In this document: positions 9,276 through 19,732 of the stretch, in pieces
Position numbering within the stretch: the stretch's first letter is position 1
Layout: every line of letters starts with the position of its first letter
IMG/VR virus record: IMGVR_UViG_3300049846_003385
Location: 1 to 21,072 of that record
Origin: a virus
Length of the DNA stretch: 21,072 bases
Direction: 5' to 3' (one strand)
Made by a program: the position numbers and the translations under genes
Notes under the pieces: generated by a model
What the model was told of the DNA's origin: nothing
Databases searched by the model: none
Seen by the model: only the letters and a program-made list of their open reading frames with translations

Positions 9276-9866
9276 ATGGCAAAGAGCACAGGGAAGAGCT
9301 GGTATAAAGAAGGAGTGGTGCAAATCAGCAAGTCAAGAGCACCCATTTCTTTCAGAAGTGGCTGGGAGTATGAATTTGCCCTTCTTCTTGAAGAAGACAA
9401 GACTGTGGTGTCGGTAGAATACGAGACTCTGCAAATCCCATACATTTCAAATAAGCGTTCCCAGAAAAGAAAAATATATATACCAGATTTCCTTGTTCAG
9501 TATACCGATGGAACTAAAAAAGTAATAGAAATAAAAAGAACGGATAGAGTCAATTCAAAACTCGTACAAACAAAGAAGCAAGCAGCAGAAGCATATTTGA
9601 ATTCTTTAAACCCACCAATAGCCTATGAATTATGGTCAAAAATAGAATTGACGAACTATAGAAAGATTATTGAGGCGAGCATTGGAAAAAAAGTAAGTAT
9701 TCCAAAACTTAAGTCCAGATCCAAGAAAAGAAAGTCTCACAGTAAAACACTTTCGGTTAAAAAAGTAAAGAAGAAAGTCGCCACTGACATTCTCTTGTCC
9801 AGCCAGCAAAGATTACTTCTTGAGACACATAAAAAATGCAAAACGAAATCAAAAGTAAAGAAGTAA
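9276..9866 (+). CDS. gp4/TnsA-like PD-(D/E)XK nuclease, probable head completion protein
   Basis: This 196-residue protein has the ordered PD-(D/E)XK signature: SFRSGWEYEF with E31, VEYETLQIPY near residues 47-56, RKIYIPDF with D71, and VIEIKR with E85 and K87. The MAKSTGKSW start and the FRSxWE/PDF/EIK order resemble T4 gp4, a nuclease needed for head completion, and the TnsA N-terminal fold (family knowledge from memory). In T4-like phages this protein acts at the packaged DNA/portal end. After about residue 140 there is a strongly basic Lys/Arg tail, probably for DNA binding. There is no Shine-Dalgarno. It overlaps the next gene by 31 nt. The homing endonuclease at 17178 has a similar catalytic domain. 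Nuclease fold is well supported; the head-completion role is moderately so. Confidence 0.78.
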   Translation: MAKSTGKSWYKEGVVQISKSRAPISFRSGWEYEFALLLEEDKTVVSVEYETLQIPYISNKRSQKRKIYIPDFLVQYTDGTKKVIEIKRTDRVNSKLVQTKKQAAEAYLNSLNPPIAYELWSKIELTNYRKIIEASIGKKVSIPKLKSRSKKRKSHSKTLSVKKVKKKVATDILLSSQQRLLLETHKKCKTKSKVKK

Positions 9867-10741: not shown

Positions 10742-11827
10742 ATGTTTACAAAATCTGAGGCGATACATTTTATAGAAAAATGTTTTGGAGAGGCATTACT
10801 ATCGAATTCTGGTCTTAATGCAAATGTAGTATGTCCTTTTTGTAAAAGAGAAAAGGGAATAAATTATTCAAACAAAAAATTAGTTATCAGAACTAGCGAT
10901 TTTGCTCTCCATTGCTGGAGATGTGGATATAAAAGCCGAGGTTTGTTTGGCTTACTCTATAAGTTTAGACGTTCTTTTCTTGAAGAATATAAGCTTAATT
11001 TTGAAAACGATTTAAAGCGCGAAGGTCTTATTAAGAAATTTGTAGCTACAGTTGAATCAAACGAATATAGAGAAAAGATACTAAGCTATAATAAGGAACC
11101 CACAAAAGAAAAGACTAATGTATTGCCAGTAGGCTTTAGATTACTTAATTCTCAGCCATATGGAAAAAGGGAAAAGTTAATTTTTGACGAAGCTTTGAAG
11201 TATCTTTTTAATAGAAAAATTACAGAGCAACAAATTGTTGACAACAATTTGGGTGTTGTTTCGTGGTTTGAAACGACGCAGGAATTCGTTAAATTCAACA
11301 ACAGAATTATGATTCCTTCTTTTGACAGGGATGCGTTGGCGAGCTTTTACACTACGAGAACAATTTTGAAAGATGTTTTGCCGCGATATTCAAATTCTGG
11401 TCATTCAAATGAAATTGTATTCAATTCTTTTTTCATCAACAGTTCATTAAAAGAACTAACGCTTGTTGAGGGTCCATTTGATTATATTTGTAGCCCATAT
11501 GAAAACACAATACCTCTTCTTGGAAGTTCAATAAGTAAACAGTCGTTAATTTATCAGTTTATTTACGAATTCAAGCCAAAATTATTAAGAATTGTCTTGG
11601 ATAAAAATGAGCTAATAAAGGCAAATAAGGTGGCAACAGAATTGTATTTGACGTGCGAACCAGAAACCACAATATTGATTGGAAATATTAATCATCCTGT
11701 TGCCAAAGATTTTGCAGAGATTCAAGATTTATCAAATCGTCTTGCGGAACCAAGTGATGTTTCTGAAACGATTTGGCACCCATTGTCTATTAAAGACAAA
11801 CTATTACTGAAAGTACAAAACCGATGA
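10742..11827 (+). CDS. DnaG-type DNA primase (zinc finger plus TOPRIM)
   Basis: The protein has 361 residues from the ATG at 10742; a TTG at 10730 is a less likely start. An N-terminal zinc finger has C31-x2-C34 (CPFCKREKG) and C58-x2-C61 (HCWRCGYKS), as in DnaG-like primases that read template DNA. A middle segment (NRIMIPSFDRD...FYTTRTI, about residues 187-208) matches the region before the catalytic core in phage primases. The TOPRIM core is visible as LVEGPFDYI (E243, D247), RIVLDKNE (D287) and AKDF (D323). The usual DxD appears as D-K-N, so the metal site is somewhat divergent. It would make RNA primers for lagging-strand synthesis. Its stop overlaps the next start (ATGA), giving translational coupling to the recombination ATPase. 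No helicase domain is attached. Confidence 0.85.
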   Translation: MFTKSEAIHFIEKCFGEALLSNSGLNANVVCPFCKREKGINYSNKKLVIRTSDFALHCWRCGYKSRGLFGLLYKFRRSFLEEYKLNFENDLKREGLIKKFVATVESNEYREKILSYNKEPTKEKTNVLPVGFRLLNSQPYGKREKLIFDEALKYLFNRKITEQQIVDNNLGVVSWFETTQEFVKFNNRIMIPSFDRDALASFYTTRTILKDVLPRYSNSGHSNEIVFNSFFINSSLKELTLVEGPFDYICSPYENTIPLLGSSISKQSLIYQFIYEFKPKLLRIVLDKNELIKANKVATELYLTCEPETTILIGNINHPVAKDFAEIQDLSNRLAEPSDVSETIWHPLSIKDKLLLKVQNR

Positions 11828-14800
11828 AAATAGCACATTTAGCAGATATTCATATTAGAGGAACGGAAAGAATACCTGAATATAGGACTGTTTTTTCAAG
11901 CCTTTATAAATCGCTTAATAGATCCAATATAGATCTGATTATTATTGCTGGGGATATCTTTCATACAAAAACACAAAACATCACTCCCGAAGGGATTGAG
12001 TTGATTGCTGAATTTTTTATCAACCTTGCCAATATCGCAGAAACTCATATTTTGCTAGGAAATCATGATGGAAATTTAAAAAACGAACAATCACAGGACG
12101 TTATTAGCCCCATTGTTCAGTTAATAAATAATAAAAATCTTGTACTCCATAAGCAAACAGAGAGTGTGGCTATAGGCGATATGGAATTTTACTTTTATTC
12201 CCTTTTTGATAAAAAGGGCTGGGAGACACTTCAAGTGCAGCAAACAAGGAAGCCGAATGTTTGTGTTTTTCATGGTTCTGTTTTGGGCTGCATAGCAGAT
12301 AATGGATTTGCACTCACAGAACATGCCGAAGTTGAACCTTGGTTTTTTTCTAAGTTCGATTTCAGCTTACTTGGAGACATTCACAAAAGACAAAGTATTG
12401 GAAAGAATAATCGTGTCCACTATGCTGGCTCACTTATTCAGCAAAATTTTGGAGAAGAGTTGGAAAAGGGTTATTTGGTTTGGGATATAAAATCTCGTGA
12501 TGATTTTGCCGTCAATTTTGTTAAGTTGCCAAACCCAAATCCATTTATTACAATAGATTGGGAGACTGATTTACAAACAACAAAGAATAAGATTTTCGAG
12601 GCATTCAAAACAAATCAATGCCAAGCTGGCTGGAAACTAAAGATTAAAAGCCAGGTTCAGTTAACAGAAAATGATAAACAAAGTTTGCTGTTATACGCAA
12701 ATACAAAGCTTGATGCAAAAAAAGTAGAATTTGATGAAAAAGTCCTATTCTCGGTTGGAGACGTGGAGATTGATGGAGAAACTCTTTCAAAAGAAGAGTT
12801 AAAAACAAACAAAGAAAAGATTAAGGATCTTTATGAGTCGTTTGTAAAACAAAACAAAACCTCCCAAAAAACTATTGATTTAGAAAAGGCGAAACTAAAA
12901 GTAGATGAATATGTCGGCAAGCTTGATATTGATACAACATCTCAAGTAAGAGATGCGATCATTCGAATTGAAAATTTCGAATTTGATAATGTTTTTGCTT
13001 ATGGTCCTTCTAATAAAGTTAATTTTAATAAATTGGATGGCTTAGTTGGAATCCTTGGAAAAAACAGAATTGGCAAATCGAGCCTTATTGGTTCGGTAGC
13101 ACTGACACTCTACAATATTACGGACAGAGCACCAGTCAAATCTGCCTTTGTTGTAAACAACAAAGAGAAAGAAGCTTGCATGAGGATGCAGATAAATTTA
13201 TCTGGGCAAAGATACTTGATCGAAAGAAGAATAGAAAAACAAATCCCCAAAAAACAAAAGAAGGCATTAGAAGACGAAGATAAGGCGCTGACCTCTTTAA
13301 AATTATTTAAGCTAGATAAGCAGGGAACCCAATATGAGTTAAACAATCAAAATTCTGTGACAAGAACCGACACAGAAAAAGTCCTAAGAAACATAATAGG
13401 AACCCCAGAAGATTTTTTATTTACATCGTTGAGTTCCCAAGGGCAAATGAATGCGTTTATTAATTCTGGGGCTACCTACCGAAAAGAATTACTTAATAGA
13501 TTTTTAGATCTAGACATCTTCAAGTCTCTTTATACGCTTGTAAATGAAGACTATAACCTTTTGAAAAAAGGATCTCTAAAAGACTATAATCCAATTTCAT
13601 TAGAAGAAAGAGTTAAAGAACTCGAAGCAGAGTTAGAAATAAAGAGAGTCTTCTTGCAAGACAAAGAACAAGAACTATCTTCAATTGAAGAAGAAATATC
13701 TTCTTTGCCAGATTCAAAGGAATATGACCAACTTCATTCCAATCTCTTCTCTCTGAAAACGGCTGTCGAAAAAAAGAATCAAGAGTTAAGCTCTAAAAAA
13801 CAAGAGCTAGATTCTATACGGGTTGTATTAGAACAGACAAAATTGAAAAAAGAATCACTTCTAAAAACATTAAAAGAGAGTACAGAATCTTTAAATGAAA
13901 TTCAATCAGAAGTTAAGGCTCTTGAGTCTGAACTAAGTGAGCTTCAAAAGTTTAAAGAAAAATATTTGCTACTTCAGAAAGATATTGAGTCTTCAAAAAA
14001 ACTAGTCAAAAAACTAGACATCGTTCCATGCGGAGACATGTTTCCAACTTGTGTTTATATAAAAGATGCACATGATTCTAAAAAGAATTTAGAACTTCTA
14101 CAAAAGGAATTATTAGCACTTGCTTTTGATGATGAAAATTTTATGGCAAAGAAATCAATCTTAAGAGAATTGAAGGATCTTTTAGAAAAAGAAAACATGG
14201 CACAAGTGACACTAAAAAATCAGTATGACACTTGTGAACGCAAAGAGTATGACTATAAAATCCAAATTGGAATAAAGGAAACTCAGATTCAGTCAATAGA
14301 AAATGATTGTGTTTTACTCAACGAGAGATTGAAAGAGTGTGCAGATAAATGCGCTTCCATGCATTCTCTATTGGGAATCCATGAAATGAGAGAGGAAAAA
14401 ATTAAATTTCGCAAGGAAAAGCAGCGCGAAATAAATACGATATCGATTGACATAGGAAGGTTATTATCAGAAAAAGAGATGGCTGAACACGATTTAGTTT
14501 CAAAAAAACAAGACCATGATCAATTAGAAATTTTGGAGACTATTTTGGCGGCATTTTCAAAAAATGGAATACCAGCCATGCTTCTTAACACACAATTGCC
14601 ATCAATTAACAAGATTGTAAATGATTATCTTTCTGGAATAGTTGACTTCAAGTTGAAGTTTGTTACAGAAGTCGGAGTCAATACTCTCGATATTTATATC
14701 GAGGATACAAAACCGAGAAGGGTAATTGAACTTGCTTCTGGTATGGAGAAAATGATTTCGTCTCTTGCTGTTAGAGCCGCATTAATGCAGCTTACCCCGC

Positions 14801-15015
14801 TACCAAAGCTTGATTCGCTTATTATAGATGAGGGTTTTGAAGCTCTAGATGAGGCAAATCTTCAGAATGTCATTAAGATGCTTAACAAACTAAAGCAGAA
14901 CTTTAGATCGATTATTGTGATTACTCATATCCCTCTTCTAAAAGAATACATGGATAAAATTATTGAAATACAGGTTGACAACGAGACCCATCAGTCTAAA
15001 ATATTGTATACATGA
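11824..15015 (+). CDS. SbcD-SbcC (Mre11-Rad50, gp47-gp46) single-chain fusion
   Basis: This is one 1063-residue reading frame. Residues 1-240 form a calcineurin-like Mre11/SbcD nuclease: D8-x-H10 (HLADIH), GD44 (IAGDIFH), GN80-H81-D82, H150 (FHGS) and GD185-x-H187. Residues from about 378 form a Rad50/SbcC ATPase: Walker A GKNRIGKSS at 412-420, Q-loop-like SLSSQGQM near 535-542, long coiled coil about 592-940 with a central Cys pair C736/C743 (CGDMFPTC), signature ASGMEK at 971-976, Walker B LIIDE at 999-1003, and ITHI near 1034. In T4 these are separate gp47 and gp46, which process DNA ends for recombination-dependent replication. Here they would be made one to one. The gene is coupled by ATGA overlaps to the primase upstream and a zinc-ribbon gene downstream. 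I see no frameshift or internal stop. Confident in both domains. Confidence 0.92.
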   Translation: MKIAHLADIHIRGTERIPEYRTVFSSLYKSLNRSNIDLIIIAGDIFHTKTQNITPEGIELIAEFFINLANIAETHILLGNHDGNLKNEQSQDVISPIVQLINNKNLVLHKQTESVAIGDMEFYFYSLFDKKGWETLQVQQTRKPNVCVFHGSVLGCIADNGFALTEHAEVEPWFFSKFDFSLLGDIHKRQSIGKNNRVHYAGSLIQQNFGEELEKGYLVWDIKSRDDFAVNFVKLPNPNPFITIDWETDLQTTKNKIFEAFKTNQCQAGWKLKIKSQVQLTENDKQSLLLYANTKLDAKKVEFDEKVLFSVGDVEIDGETLSKEELKTNKEKIKDLYESFVKQNKTSQKTIDLEKAKLKVDEYVGKLDIDTTSQVRDAIIRIENFEFDNVFAYGPSNKVNFNKLDGLVGILGKNRIGKSSLIGSVALTLYNITDRAPVKSAFVVNNKEKEACMRMQINLSGQRYLIERRIEKQIPKKQKKALEDEDKALTSLKLFKLDKQGTQYELNNQNSVTRTDTEKVLRNIIGTPEDFLFTSLSSQGQMNAFINSGATYRKELLNRFLDLDIFKSLYTLVNEDYNLLKKGSLKDYNPISLEERVKELEAELEIKRVFLQDKEQELSSIEEEISSLPDSKEYDQLHSNLFSLKTAVEKKNQELSSKKQELDSIRVVLEQTKLKKESLLKTLKESTESLNEIQSEVKALESELSELQKFKEKYLLLQKDIESSKKLVKKLDIVPCGDMFPTCVYIKDAHDSKKNLELLQKELLALAFDDENFMAKKSILRELKDLLEKENMAQVTLKNQYDTCERKEYDYKIQIGIKETQIQSIENDCVLLNERLKECADKCASMHSLLGIHEMREEKIKFRKEKQREINTISIDIGRLLSEKEMAEHDLVSKKQDHDQLEILETILAAFSKNGIPAMLLNTQLPSINKIVNDYLSGIVDFKLKFVTEVGVNTLDIYIEDTKPRRVIELASGMEKMISSLAVRAALMQLTPLPKLDSLIIDEGFEALDEANLQNVIKMLNKLKQNFRSIIVITHIPLLKEYMDKIIEIQVDNETHQSKILYT

Positions 15016-15761: not shown

Positions 15762-15793
15762 TGTTATAGTTACTCTAACATAACAATGTTAGA
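15762..15793 (+). promoter_or_regulatory. Two mutually exclusive hairpins over the start of the terminase ATPase paralog
   Basis: Hairpin A: TGTTAT-(A bulge)-GTTA (15762-15772) pairs with TAACATAACA (15776-15785) over 10 bp around CTC, ending exactly before the ATG at 15786. Hairpin B: TCTAACAT (15774-15781) pairs with ATGTTAGA (15786-15793) over 8 bp around AACA, with the start codon inside the stem. The two share 15774-15781 and cannot form together. No Shine-Dalgarno is visible nearby. The geometry resembles a translational switch or a repressor site, but the mechanism is inferred. Confidence 0.5.
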
Positions 15794-16547
15794 ACTAGTA
15801 AAAATCAAAGAAAATACAGATGGCAGAACACAAAAGTGTTTAGAATGGAAAAAAGACCCATTCCTTTTTACCAAGGAATGCCTGTCACTGTCACACCCAG
15901 TAAAAGGTACAATTCCTTTTGAACTATATGATTGGCAAAGGAAAGCTCTGGAAAAGTTTCTTATCACAGATAAGGGTAAATGGTCTTTTGTAACAGCTAG
16001 ACAAGTAGGTAAAACCAGTTTAATTATTGCCGCAGCAGTTAATGCTACATGTTTTGAATGTGCCCAAATTGGCATTGTTAGTTTCAATCTAGAATATTCC
16101 AAGTTAATTCTAGCAAAAATTAAGTCATTGATTAATAGATTACCAGAAGAGCTTATAAAAGTGCTTCGACTAGAGATCGTCAGAGACACTGCAAAGGTTA
16201 TTGAATTTGCAAACGGAGCCCGTATACGGGCCTTGCCAGCAACTTGCATGGCCCTTCGCGGGGAATCGTTCGATTATGTTTTTGTTGATGAAGCTGCTCA
16301 TATTAATTCGGGAGAACTAGAAGGGTTGTTATCTCAGGCAGATTGTTGCAGTCAAAAACTGATTGTGCTCTCGACACCAACCAGAAAAAAAGAAAACAAT
16401 AAAGTTTTCAAATCTTTTTGTGAGAATTCCGAAAAAACAAATGTAAAATGGAATGATGTTCCTGGGCGTGATTCGAAATGGGTCGAGGAACAGATTGCAC
16501 ATTTAGATTATCATGCCGCGGCTGCTGAATATTTTCTGCAAATGTGA
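15786..16547 (+). CDS. ATPase-only paralog of the large terminase
   Basis: This 253-residue protein is homologous to the first part of the TerL that follows. Both share DP-x-x-F near the start and HPVKGxIPxELYxxQ (residues 37-51 here). It has a classical P-loop, ARQVGKTS (71-78), Walker B YVFVDEA with D168/E169, and a coupling-type motif VLSTPTRKK (194-202). It stops at EYFLQM (248-253), the point that aligns with EKEYCCGF in TerL, just before the nuclease domain. It is therefore an ATPase domain without nuclease, not a random truncation. At the position where TerL carries its intein it reads VDE-AAH and is uninterrupted. Its stop overlaps a GTG start of TerL (GTGA), so the two are co-translated. 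It may be a regulatory or mixed-ring packaging ATPase, or a degenerating duplicate. The homology is clear; the role is unknown. Confidence 0.82.
   Translation: MLELVKIKENTDGRTQKCLEWKKDPFLFTKECLSLSHPVKGTIPFELYDWQRKALEKFLITDKGKWSFVTARQVGKTSLIIAAAVNATCFECAQIGIVSFNLEYSKLILAKIKSLINRLPEELIKVLRLEIVRDTAKVIEFANGARIRALPATCMALRGESFDYVFVDEAAHINSGELEGLLSQADCCSQKLIVLSTPTRKKENNKVFKSFCENSEKTNVKWNDVPGRDSKWVEEQIAHLDYHAAAAEYFLQM
16218..16231. repeat. GC-rich perfect 14-bp palindrome within the terminase paralog
   Basis: GCCCGTATACGGGC is a perfect palindrome inside codons for GARIRA in the ATPase-only paralog. Ten of its 14 bases are G or C in an otherwise AT-rich genome, and TerL itself encodes a different sequence (GSKIEA) at the aligned place. 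It may be a protein-binding or packaging site, or chance. Confidence 0.4.
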
Positions 16548-17176
16548 AGGCTCATAAAAGCCTAGTTAATCTTACTAGGAAAATGGCCGAAACAAAAAAA
16601 GCAGCAGTAAATTTAAGAATGCAGGAGTTGCAGAGATGCAAAGAAGATCCTGTTTATTTTATTAAAAACTACATCTATATTCAGCATCCAGTAAAAGGTA
16701 GAATTCCGTTGGAACTTTATCCTTTTCAAGAGAATTGCATTGAAGACTTTCTCGAATTCAAATACAACATAGTTGTAAAATCTAGACAGTTAGGATTATC
16801 AACTATTACTTCAGCTTATTGCCTTTGGCTCGCGATGTTCCATCAGGATAAACTAGTCCTATTGATGGCAACGCGACTTGAAACCGCAAAGAACATGATT
16901 CAAAAAATCCGTATCGCGTTCAAAGACGTTGCGCCATGGATTAAAACAAGTCTTGGTTTAACTGAGACTGAAAAAGAATCAGTTAAGTATATTGAATTTT
17001 CAAACGGTTCCAAAATTGAAGCTATTCCAACAACTCCTGAAAGCGTTCGTGGTGTTGCGTGTTCTTTGTTGGTGATTGACGAATGCGTGTCTGGTGACAC
17101 ACTAATAACTGTAAGGAATAGTGAAACTGGTGAAATAATGGAAATTCCAATAGAAGAACTATGGGGAGATTTGTAA
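16544..17176 (+). CDS. terL: Large terminase, N-terminal half, ending in a 30-aa N-intein
   Basis: This 210-residue gene encodes the first part of the packaging motor ATPase. Residues 1-180 are extein: HPVKGRIPLELYPFQ (48-62), a variant Walker A KSRQLGLST (79-87) in which the usual GKT lysine is Leu, and Walker B LLVIDE (175-180). Residues 181-210 are an N-intein with block A CVSGDTLI, beginning directly after the catalytic Glu, and then a stop. The gene therefore cannot make a working ATPase alone; trans-splicing with the product of the gene at 18245 is expected. I took the GTG at 16544 overlapping the previous stop; an ATG at 16583 (residue 14) is an alternative. The N-intein codons also hold the GGGGAG ribosome site of the following endonuclease. 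Split design confidence is high. Confidence 0.88.
   Translation: MKAHKSLVNLTRKMAETKKAAVNLRMQELQRCKEDPVYFIKNYIYIQHPVKGRIPLELYPFQENCIEDFLEFKYNIVVKSRQLGLSTITSAYCLWLAMFHQDKLVLLMATRLETAKNMIQKIRIAFKDVAPWIKTSLGLTETEKESVKYIEFSNGSKIEAIPTTPESVRGVACSLLVIDECVSGDTLITVRNSETGEIMEIPIEELWGDL
17163..17168 (+). promoter_or_regulatory. Strong Shine-Dalgarno GGGGAG for the homing endonuclease
   Basis: GGGGAG lies 9 nt before the ATG at 17178, embedded in the last N-intein codons (ELWGDL). The mobile gene thus carries its own ribosome site within coding sequence of the intein. Confidence 0.7.
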
Positions 17177-17177
17177 A

Positions 17178-18257
17178 ATGAATAACGAAAATATTGAAAT
17201 TATTAAACGATATGTTTTTAACAATGGCAAAATGTTACATTTTGCACTAAACCCAAATTGGTATGAAAAGCACGGTATTTTACATATTAAAACTTTAATA
17301 CATGAAGAAACCTCGTTTTTAGACCAAGAAGCAACATTAAGAGAACGCATTTTTTATATCGAAAAGGGAATAGACACACCAAAAATTTGCAACTATTGTA
17401 ATTCTCGACAAATTAGGTTTATTACAACTGGAGCATTGAAATTTTATAAATCTTGTAAAGATGCCGAGTGTCTTGCCAAACATAAATCTAAAGTTTCTAT
17501 TAGAAACTGGGAAAGGATGGAAAAGGAGAAAAGAGAAAGCGTCTCCGTTAAGATTGGAAAATCCAATAAAGGAAAGAAGCGATCTGAAGAGTATAAAAAG
17601 GCGTGTAAAATAAGGAATCTTGGAAGAAAGCAAGACGAGGCAACAAAAAGAAAAAGAATAGAAACAAGAAAAAATAATGGAAATTTATGGTTTTCAAAAG
17701 AAACATTAAGAAAACTTTCAGAGTCAAATCGGAAAACACATCTCTCTAAGGAATTTAAAGAAAAATATAAAGAAATTTATCTGGCATCTAGAGAAAAGAT
17801 ATCTAATTCAATTAAAAAAAAGATATTTCTTGGACAATACACGCCAAAAACAGTAAATAAATTTTCTAGAAAAACTGCTTTCTGCATAAAAGAAAATACG
17901 AATTTTAAATTTAGAAGCAGTTGGGAAGCTATTTTTTGGCTAGTAGTTCCAAATATAGAATATGAAACTTTAAGATTGTCTTACAAATATGAAAATAAAG
18001 ATCATATTTATATTGTTGATTTTATTGACAAACAAAATAAAAAGTTATATGAGATAAAACCGTGTAGTGAAAGAACAAGTGAAAAAAATCTAGCAAAATT
18101 TGACGCGGCTAGTAAATGGGCAAAAGATAATGGATATGATTTTCAAATTATTACCGAGGAATGGTTTCGGGAAAATTTACAAGATTATATGTTTGGAACA
18201 GAAAACGAGCATCTTAATTTAAGATTAAAAGGTTTGGTTGGTAAATGCAAAAAGTAA
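17178..18257 (+). CDS. Free-standing homing endonuclease: zinc finger, basic region, gp4-like PD-(D/E)XK nuclease
   Basis: This 359-residue protein lies between the two intein halves, where it would promote spread of the intein by cutting intein-free terL. Order of parts: an N-terminal zinc finger with C71-x2-C74 and C93-x4-C98; a basic NUMOD3-like DNA-binding region at about 125-220 (GKSNKGKKRSEEYKKAC, then similar repeats); and a C-terminal nuclease with FKFRSSWE (E250), IEYETLRLSY (260-269), IYIVDF (D281) and YEIKP (E292, K294), closing with NGYDFQIITEEWF. This nuclease part resembles T4-gp4-type head completion nucleases and the gene at 9276. It is not LAGLIDADG, GIY-YIG or HNH by eye. 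It starts one base after the N-intein stop and overlaps the C-intein start by 13 nt. Position and domains support the role; the cut site is inferred. Confidence 0.82.
   Translation: MNNENIEIIKRYVFNNGKMLHFALNPNWYEKHGILHIKTLIHEETSFLDQEATLRERIFYIEKGIDTPKICNYCNSRQIRFITTGALKFYKSCKDAECLAKHKSKVSIRNWERMEKEKRESVSVKIGKSNKGKKRSEEYKKACKIRNLGRKQDEATKRKRIETRKNNGNLWFSKETLRKLSESNRKTHLSKEFKEKYKEIYLASREKISNSIKKKIFLGQYTPKTVNKFSRKTAFCIKENTNFKFRSSWEAIFWLVVPNIEYETLRLSYKYENKDHIYIVDFIDKQNKKLYEIKPCSERTSEKNLAKFDAASKWAKDNGYDFQIITEEWFRENLQDYMFGTENEHLNLRLKGLVGKCKK
18211..18225 (+). repeat. Inverted repeat 20 nt before the C-intein gene start
   Basis: ATCTTAA (18211-18217) and TTAAGAT (18219-18225) are exact inverted repeats separated by one base, inside the last codons of the endonuclease. 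AAAAGG follows at 18227-18232 and the ATG is at 18245. It may help to present a ribosome site for the C-intein gene, but an AT-rich chance repeat is also possible. Confidence 0.35.
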
Positions 18258-19732
18258 ATTCAAAATACGAGGTTTTAACTCCTTCTGGTTGGAGCAAGTT
18301 TACAGGAATAAAGAAGACAAAAAAACAAGCATATCTTGTTATCGCAACAGAAAATTCAGAGTTAAAATGTTCATATGAACATAAATTGAAATTTCCAAAT
18401 GGAGAATTTTTAGAGGCTCAGTTTATTTCAAAAGGAGACATTTTACAAGATGTTGGAGAGGTTCTTGATATAAAGGAAGTGGTCAAAGAAATAGAGTTGT
18501 TTGATCTTTTGAATGTTGAAATGGGGAACGAATATTATACTAATGATTTTGTTTCATCAAACTGTGCTCACATTGAGAAATTTGATGATATTTGGGAGGC
18601 GGCTAGACCAACAATTACAACTGGTGGTGATGCCATTTTATTTTCTTCTCCAAATGGAAAGGGCTTGTTTTATGAAATCTACAAAAATGCTGAATCTGGT
18701 GAATGGATTGAAAATCGAGTAGGATTCCACGGAAAAGAAACTGGTAAAAATAGTTTTCATGCAATTAAATTGCCATGGCAAGTGCATCCTGATAGAGATG
18801 AAAAATGGTTTGAAAACGAAACAAAATCTCTTGATCCAAAGAAAATAGAAAAAGAATATTGTTGTGGATTCGAGGGAAGTGGAAATACGTTTTTTAATTC
18901 CGAAACTATAGAGTGGGCAAAATCAACGGTTATTTCTCCCTTGGTTTATGAACACAAAGGTAATGAATTCTGGATTTGGGAGCCCCCGCAGGAAAATCAC
19001 AAATATGTAATTTCGAGTGATATTGCCCGCGGAGATGGGGAGGACAATTCATGTTGTCATATAATAGACATGACAACAGATGAACAGGTTGCTGAATTTT
19101 ATGGTAAAATAGCTCCTGATAAATTTGCCGAGCTTATGGTAAACTATGCAGAGAGATATAATAACGCATTAATAATAAGTGAATTAAACTCTATCGGAAT
19201 TGCCGCATCTATCAAATTAAGAGATTCTAAATATCCAAACATTTATTATGATGAAAAATCAAAAGAAAAAATGGAACTCATGACAGACGAGGAAAAGGAA
19301 GATATTCTCCCTGGGCACACCACATCCTCGAAAACAAGAGAAAAGCTGCTGTCGAAGTTAGAAAACGCATTAAGAAACAAGCAGTTGAGAATTAATAGCT
19401 CAAGATTTGTGGCGGAAATGGATACCTTTATTTGGAATGGCAAAAAAGCACAGTCTTTGCGCGGCAAAAACGATGACTCAATTATGGCGCTCTCAATCGC
19501 TTTACTAGTTTACGAGCCAGCAGGTAATAGCAAGAACAAACAAACATATTCTGCTTCTGATTGGCATAACGCTTTTTTACAAAGCATTTCTCGCGGCAGC
19601 AAACCAAAAGAATTTCAACAAGCCATAAATAACGAGAGAGAATCGCTCAGGAATGAAATATTGGGATTGCCAAGAAACTTCCCAAGTAGGGGAATAGGAA
19701 TGTTCGGAATAGATCCAAGAAAACTGAGATAA
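18245..19732 (+). CDS. terL: Large terminase, C-terminal part, beginning with a 106-aa C-intein
   Basis: This is a 495-residue precursor. Residues 1-106 are the C-intein: block B-like CSYEHKLKF with H46, F-block-like LFDLLNVE near 85-92, and the terminal NDFVSSN, with Ser rather than the common His before the last Asn. Cys107 is the +1 residue. The extein then supplies the rest of the ATPase, including the coupling motif FSSPNGKG (133-140), and an RNase H-like nuclease with D259 (SSDIARGDGEDNS), E313 (IISELNS) and D410/D411 (KNDDSIMA), the three acidic positions of T4 gp17-type terminases. After trans-splicing it would pump DNA into the prohead and cut the concatemer. The start overlaps the endonuclease by 13 nt. 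All terminase motifs outside the intein look intact. Confidence 0.9.
   Translation: MQKVNSKYEVLTPSGWSKFTGIKKTKKQAYLVIATENSELKCSYEHKLKFPNGEFLEAQFISKGDILQDVGEVLDIKEVVKEIELFDLLNVEMGNEYYTNDFVSSNCAHIEKFDDIWEAARPTITTGGDAILFSSPNGKGLFYEIYKNAESGEWIENRVGFHGKETGKNSFHAIKLPWQVHPDRDEKWFENETKSLDPKKIEKEYCCGFEGSGNTFFNSETIEWAKSTVISPLVYEHKGNEFWIWEPPQENHKYVISSDIARGDGEDNSCCHIIDMTTDEQVAEFYGKIAPDKFAELMVNYAERYNNALIISELNSIGIAASIKLRDSKYPNIYYDEKSKEKMELMTDEEKEDILPGHTTSSKTREKLLSKLENALRNKQLRINSSRFVAEMDTFIWNGKKAQSLRGKNDDSIMALSIALLVYEPAGNSKNKQTYSASDWHNAFLQSISRGSKPKEFQQAINNERESLRNEILGLPRNFPSRGIGMFGIDPRKLR

Follow-up and report, generated by a model that had tools for sequence, protein, structure and literature searches.

In the window examined here, a complete 21,072-bp metagenomic fragment (IMG/VR record IMGVR_UViG_3300049846_003385), the viral gene for the large terminase subunit (terL) is fractured by a split intein with a short N-terminal part, and the gene for a putative homing endonuclease lies between the two halves. 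We hold it to be very likely that the endonuclease gene invaded an intein within terL and that full-length TerL is restored by protein trans-splicing. The evidence lies in the homology of each part, in intact catalytic motifs, in an unbroken sister allele and in endonuclease remnants found in relatives.

All parts of the locus are on the plus strand. The TerL N-extein (16544..17083, 180 amino acids (aa); phrog_5989 terminase large subunit, E 7.5e-48) forms the ATPase domain, with a Walker A-like SRQLGLST motif, and ends at the Walker B motif VIDE. This is followed directly by a 30-aa N-intein (CVSGDTLITVRNSETGEIMEIPIEELWGDL; 17084..17173), which was aligned with contiguous and other split N-inteins, begins with Cys1, ends after the helix IEELWGDL and is closed by a TAA stop (17174..17176). 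One base past this stop begins the open reading frame (ORF) of the endonuclease (17178..18257, 359 aa; TnsA-like PF08722, E 3.6e-9, above the Pfam cut-off; phrog_15427, E 1.7e-26), with a Shine-Dalgarno-like GGAG at 17165..17168, 9 nucleotides (nt) before its ATG. The ATG of the C-half (18245) sits 13 nt inside the endonuclease ORF (overlap 18245..18257), preceded by a weak Shine-Dalgarno-like AAGG at 18229..18232, and from this overlap translational coupling between the endonuclease gene and the C-half is likely. The C-half opens with a 106-aa C-intein (18245..18562) carrying the block B His46 and a tail of YYTNDFVSSN with terminal Asn106, after which the TerL C-extein (18563..19732, 389 aa and stop; phrog_2, E 6.9e-22) starts at Cys+1 with CAHIEK and contains the nuclease-domain motifs DIARGDGED, ELNSIG and NDDSIMALS. 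The terL ORFs and the endonuclease ORF are intact, as are the ATPase and nuclease motifs of TerL. Removal of the 30 and 106 intein residues gives a predicted ligated TerL of 569 residues when counted from GTG 16544, or 556 if the start is ATG 16583, which may be the true one. A first-pass annotation had already described terL as broken by a split intein around an endonuclease gene, with Cys1 right after VIDE, a stop after 30 intein residues, a 106-residue C-intein ending in Asn before Cys+1 and a predicted spliced product of about 569 residues; all of this was recovered at the positions above, and on sequence grounds its interpretation of the locus is supported.

The same annotation had assumed that both segments are homologous to Hint-domain inteins, which proved correct. 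The best match of the C-intein was CatC (PDB 6dsl, E 7e-14), followed by gp41-1 (E 1.3e-4), and the fold of the sister intein described below is that of solved inteins. Cat was engineered as a consensus of TerL inteins with an atypical split, in which a short N part of 25-37 aa is paired with a long C part of 104-115 aa (PMC11766414). In an alignment with 10 relatives, His46, Asp87, Asn100, Asn106 and Cys+1 of the C-intein were invariant, and the window has the Cys1, block B His, terminal Asn and Cys/Ser/Thr+1 that characterise class 1 inteins. With 30/106 aa, the split is also of the atypical short-N kind (N part of ~15-40 aa, break before block B), falling after the first helix and ~65 residues ahead of the canonical split site. 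The two halves therefore read as a naturally split class-1-type Hint intein (Cys1, Asn106, Cys+1) for which trans-splicing is predicted.

The closest relatives of the window, with 81% extein identity (86.7% over the N-extein, window versus G001) and a sister position in the extein tree (100/100 support), are two IMG/VR contigs of 172 and 204 kb, G001 and G002, in which TerL is a single 699-aa ORF. This ORF contains a contiguous 136-aa intein at the site of the window's intein, whose 30 and 106 residues likewise add up to 136. AlphaFold2 (AF2) modelled the contiguous G001 intein, from an input alignment that included the window halves, with a predicted local distance difference test (pLDDT) score of mostly 93-98 and a fold matching the structures of VidaL, NrdJ-1, Cat and gp41-1. 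Mapped on this model, the break in the window lies where a helix (residues 23-31) ends and borders on the loop 32-37. Since a matching strand/short-helix/loop motif recurs at intein residues 84-100, the usual endonuclease site, the break is probably the N35 site of Beyer et al. 2019, the pseudo-symmetric twin of C35, as judged from secondary structure and sequence rather than by superposition.

We propose that a mobile endonuclease gene invaded a once-contiguous mini-intein at the loop after its first helix and so broke the chain. The two TerL halves would now be made as separate but translationally coupled proteins, the 30-aa N-intein would bind the 106-aa C-intein to complete the Hint fold, and trans-splicing would ligate the exteins into the 569-aa TerL. 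The endonuclease would propagate by cleaving those alleles of the terL site that have no endonuclease.

The middle ORF comprises an N-terminal Cys-rich/NUMOD-like region and a C-terminal PD-(D/E)XK domain (aa ~231-335), in which the catalytic residues Glu250, Asp281 and Glu292-x-Lys294 are invariant or nearly so among relatives. A single-sequence search with the window endonuclease returned no relatives, and these were found by an alignment-based search. In the AF2 model most of the nuclease domain has a pLDDT >90, and the best Foldseek matches were TnsA/Vsr-type enzymes and I-Bth0305I, all of them weak (E 0.09-0.9; TnsA 0.09-0.26). The enzyme is TnsA-like and not of the Vsr-like (EDxHD) type, the homing endonucleases of which are reportedly found in fractured genes. 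Its presence or absence at the terL site is patchy among relatives, and the same TnsA-like family also occurs in helicase and clamp-loader genes, at breaks of the canonical long-N kind. We interpret it as a mobile PD-(D/E)XK homing endonuclease, with site-specific cleavage and homing putative. A further TnsA-like nuclease (PF08722) is encoded at 9276-9866 of the window, with 33% identity over 112 aa to the catalytic domain of the endonuclease (E 2e-7).

A search with intein profiles found 64 viral loci, and 49 entries, which include cultured phages and some near-identical sequences, have both halves at the Walker B site. Thirty of the 49 are fractured with a TnsA-like endonuclease or its remnant (16 distinct by sequence), while the other 19 comprise eight split without endonuclease, eight contiguous, two with the endonuclease fused in frame to the N-intein, and one dispersed. 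The endonuclease ORF overlaps the start of the C-half by 4-34 nt in all 16 distinct fractured loci. The contiguous Walker B inteins are 133-149 aa long, and none of the contiguous inteins examined carries an endonuclease in frame with both halves. No match to the intein was found in a search of bacterial and archaeal genomes. Among cultured phages, the fractured layout was present in phiR1-RT, HY03 and PspYZU05, and the endonuclease is fused in frame to the N-half in Thanatos-2 and JK32. In the extein tree these states are scattered and several branches are long, for which reason we count independent origins no further than "several". The window locus is thus one of many, and the N-terminal break is present in tens of viral contigs and also in cultured phages, whose annotations do not recognise it. 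The first-pass annotation had regarded very short natural N-inteins as uncommon, which does not hold for T4-like terL, where they occur at many loci and in several cultured phages. Short-N breaks were also seen at other T4-like TerL sites (L032, L033, L034, L035), TerL of Atu_ph07 is split at Walker A, and a GIY-YIG-like domain is fused to the N-half in Vibrio K474 and 1.255.O and to the C-half side in AsFcp_2. In L042-L047, L041 and L093-L096, TerL is in three pieces with two successive split inteins per gene, which would need two trans-splicing steps.

The enzymes at these breaks are not of one family. Other occupants of the Walker B break are a gene with a Vsr-like motif in L063 (recognised by eye) and DUF7487-bearing genes in L063, L070 and L081. 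At the AceL-TerL site, near-identical inteins are interrupted by a GIY-YIG-like gene (L183, by eye), by an HNH gene (L188, PF13392) or by nothing. The L183 and L188 enzymes are nearly identical in their C-terminal region, as though different nuclease domains had been exchanged on a common DNA-binding tail. Furthermore, endonuclease remnants without a full gene lie between the halves of L061 (29 aa, 83%, E 8e-15), L065 (E 7e-20) and L056 (22 aa, E 9e-9), and a truncated copy between those of L068 (E 2e-47); these E-values were computed on a very small database made up of selected gaps. The bases that close the AceL N-half, AGGTTGGCATAATG, have their match at the 3' end of L183's GIY-YIG-like gene (...AGTTGGCATAATG), and the contiguous L184 holds the 3' end of the L188 HNH gene (GTTGAAAAAAAGAGTTGGACAAATG) in another reading frame. 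Because of this endonuclease 3'-end DNA, both AceL-TerL and L184 look like products of endonuclease deletion, and the contiguity of L184 is probably secondary. Behind the N-intein stop of L043, L053, L057, L183 and L188, at two different TerL intein sites, there is a short degenerate copy of the start of the 3' extein (p ~0.002 each), as if the endonuclease had brought along part of its terL target.

These findings bear on what Beyer et al. 2019 (PMC6801210) gave as puzzles, namely the origin of atypical splits and the single endonuclease site in inteins. In that work, all intein endonuclease domains are placed at one conserved site and an insertion at N35 is predicted to clash with the exteins; in a 2025 paper (PMC11923092) only the typical split is tied to endonuclease position. 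We think it reasonably probable that phage TerL inteins have, in the N35-type loop, a second endonuclease site that has been used repeatedly and is tolerated only when the chain is broken, and that atypical splits, AceL-TerL included, are scars of endonuclease gain and loss, some of which re-fuse in frame. If true, this would contradict the statement of one conserved site, and the predicted extein clash would explain both the one-site rule and its exception. The accessible literature, which did not extend to Dassa 2009, Thiel 2014, Aranko 2014 or Bachmann and Mootz 2015, contains no statement that atypical breaks are endonuclease sites, and the novelty of the N35 idea is provisional. What is new is comparative: several endonuclease families occur at the N-terminal loop, and remnants occur in endonuclease-free splits. 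The locus and its relatives suggest an answer that can be put to the test, in a series of contiguous, N-fused, fractured, remnant-bearing and dispersed forms, within which the value of the window is that it preserves a complete endonuclease-bearing stage beside an unbroken sister. They also provide many new natural short-N split inteins, some of them in phages that grow on laboratory E. coli. A related terL C-intein is encoded by kaaroe and JK32, phages reported on the E. coli strains MG1655 or XL1 Blue.

AceL-TerL, GOS-TerL and Cat are, like the window, TerL inteins with a short N and a long C part. The AceL-TerL site is TEFE/C...N/CEFLGS, with the halves adjacent and no endonuclease gene, in contrast to VIDE/C and an intact endonuclease gene in the window. 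The resemblance to AceL-TerL that had been noted for this locus thus stands for the short-N/long-C split but not for the site in TerL or the endonuclease between the halves, and the window intein is a different allele of AceL's split type. The AceL C-intein query gave a match of 100% identity in IMG/VR locus L181. The fractured genes of Dassa et al. 2009 are said to have a canonical split (long N, short C) with a free-standing endonuclease between. The window shares with them a broken phage gene whose split-intein halves flank a free-standing endonuclease gene, the layout that the first-pass annotation had recognised, but its break lies at the N-terminal loop instead. Among Straboviridae, Yersinia phage phiR1-RT (g166/g167/g168), HY03 and PspYZU05 share with the window the TerL site, the gene order, a homologous endonuclease and the 13-nt overlap, although their endonuclease, at 199 aa, is N-terminally shortened, their N-intein has 41-43 aa and their exteins are distant from those of the window. 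Their annotations give two terminases and a hypothetical protein, and nothing more. Many T4-like phages are annotated with two partial terminases in place of the single trans-spliced TerL that is to be expected.

In Campylobacter phages (Fletchervirus, IBB_35/CP21), too, the Walker B site of TerL holds an intein, in some split and in others contiguous. The intein of CP21 is contiguous, and its close relative IBB_35 has an HNH-type insertion at that site. In Fletchervirus L001/L016/L017, unlike in the window, the TerL halves lie far apart on opposite strands with no endonuclease between. Fletchervirus TerL halves are annotated as separate terminase genes or as hypothetical proteins. IBB_35 TerL (L022 41760-47033) apparently has inteins at three sites; one is contiguous, and the other two are fractured, each with a different endonuclease gene.

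It is unlikely that the two TerL parts act unspliced, as separate ATPase and nuclease subunits with vestigial intein parts. The phage nucleotide reductase nrdA, which the homing endonuclease mobE splits, does work as two peptides, as cited in PMC10448857, and the break in the window parts the Walker B region from the remainder of TerL. However, it interrupts the ATPase fold itself, immediately behind the Walker B Glu, and does not fall between domains; every aligned relative retains Cys1, the block B His, the terminal Asn and Cys+1, and the C-intein has not evolved faster than the extein (pN versus G001 of 0.205 for the C-intein and 0.208 for the C-extein, that is, equal amino-acid divergence). 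Less probable again is a dead copy, a terL left non-functional by the endonuclease insertion, with its fragments now decaying. A TerL-ATPase-like paralog just upstream (15786-16547) would fit with this, but it is ATPase-only and also stands upstream of the intact terL of G001, the ORFs and motifs of the window are intact with overlapping starts, and in other phages this arrangement is the sole recognised terL.

Joining at the RNA level, by a self-splicing intron containing the endonuclease ORF, was how a related Campylobacter phage locus was read (terL of IBB_35 was published as containing an intein and an intron, PMC3322345). This is very improbable for the window, in which neither Rfam families (at gathering thresholds), group I introns included, nor tRNAs were detected, the N-intein stop and C-intein start recur in position, and the sister's contiguous intein matches the two halves in total length. 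An assembly or metagenome artefact, which might be suspected in a 21-kb metagenomic fragment, has a negligible probability, and is ruled out by the recurrence of the layout and its overlaps in complete, independently sequenced cultured-phage genomes and in many independent assemblies.

Several points nonetheless weigh against an endonuclease-invaded intein that restores TerL by trans-splicing. The Shine-Dalgarno-like site of the C-half is weak, the N-intein is only 43% identical to that of G001, and the endonuclease 5' flank of the window has no extein copy (p 0.66). In addition, dN/dS cannot be used, synonymous divergence (dS) being saturated, and contiguous forms can be secondary re-fusions, as in L184, so that the polarity proposed for the window versus G001 is tentative.

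Other features were noted around terL. The upstream ATPase-only TerL-like paralog (759 bp) has Walker motifs without a nuclease domain and lies directly upstream of terL both in the window and in G001 (L003 3721-4371); the window and G001 paralogs share 29% identity, and the window paralog is 31% identical to the window TerL N-half. L003 also encodes, on the minus strand, a phage GroEL with a large intein just before TTTAT (896-aa ORF). At 11824-15015 of the window, an Mre11-like phosphoesterase and a Rad50/SbcC-like ATPase are fused in one 1063-aa ORF.

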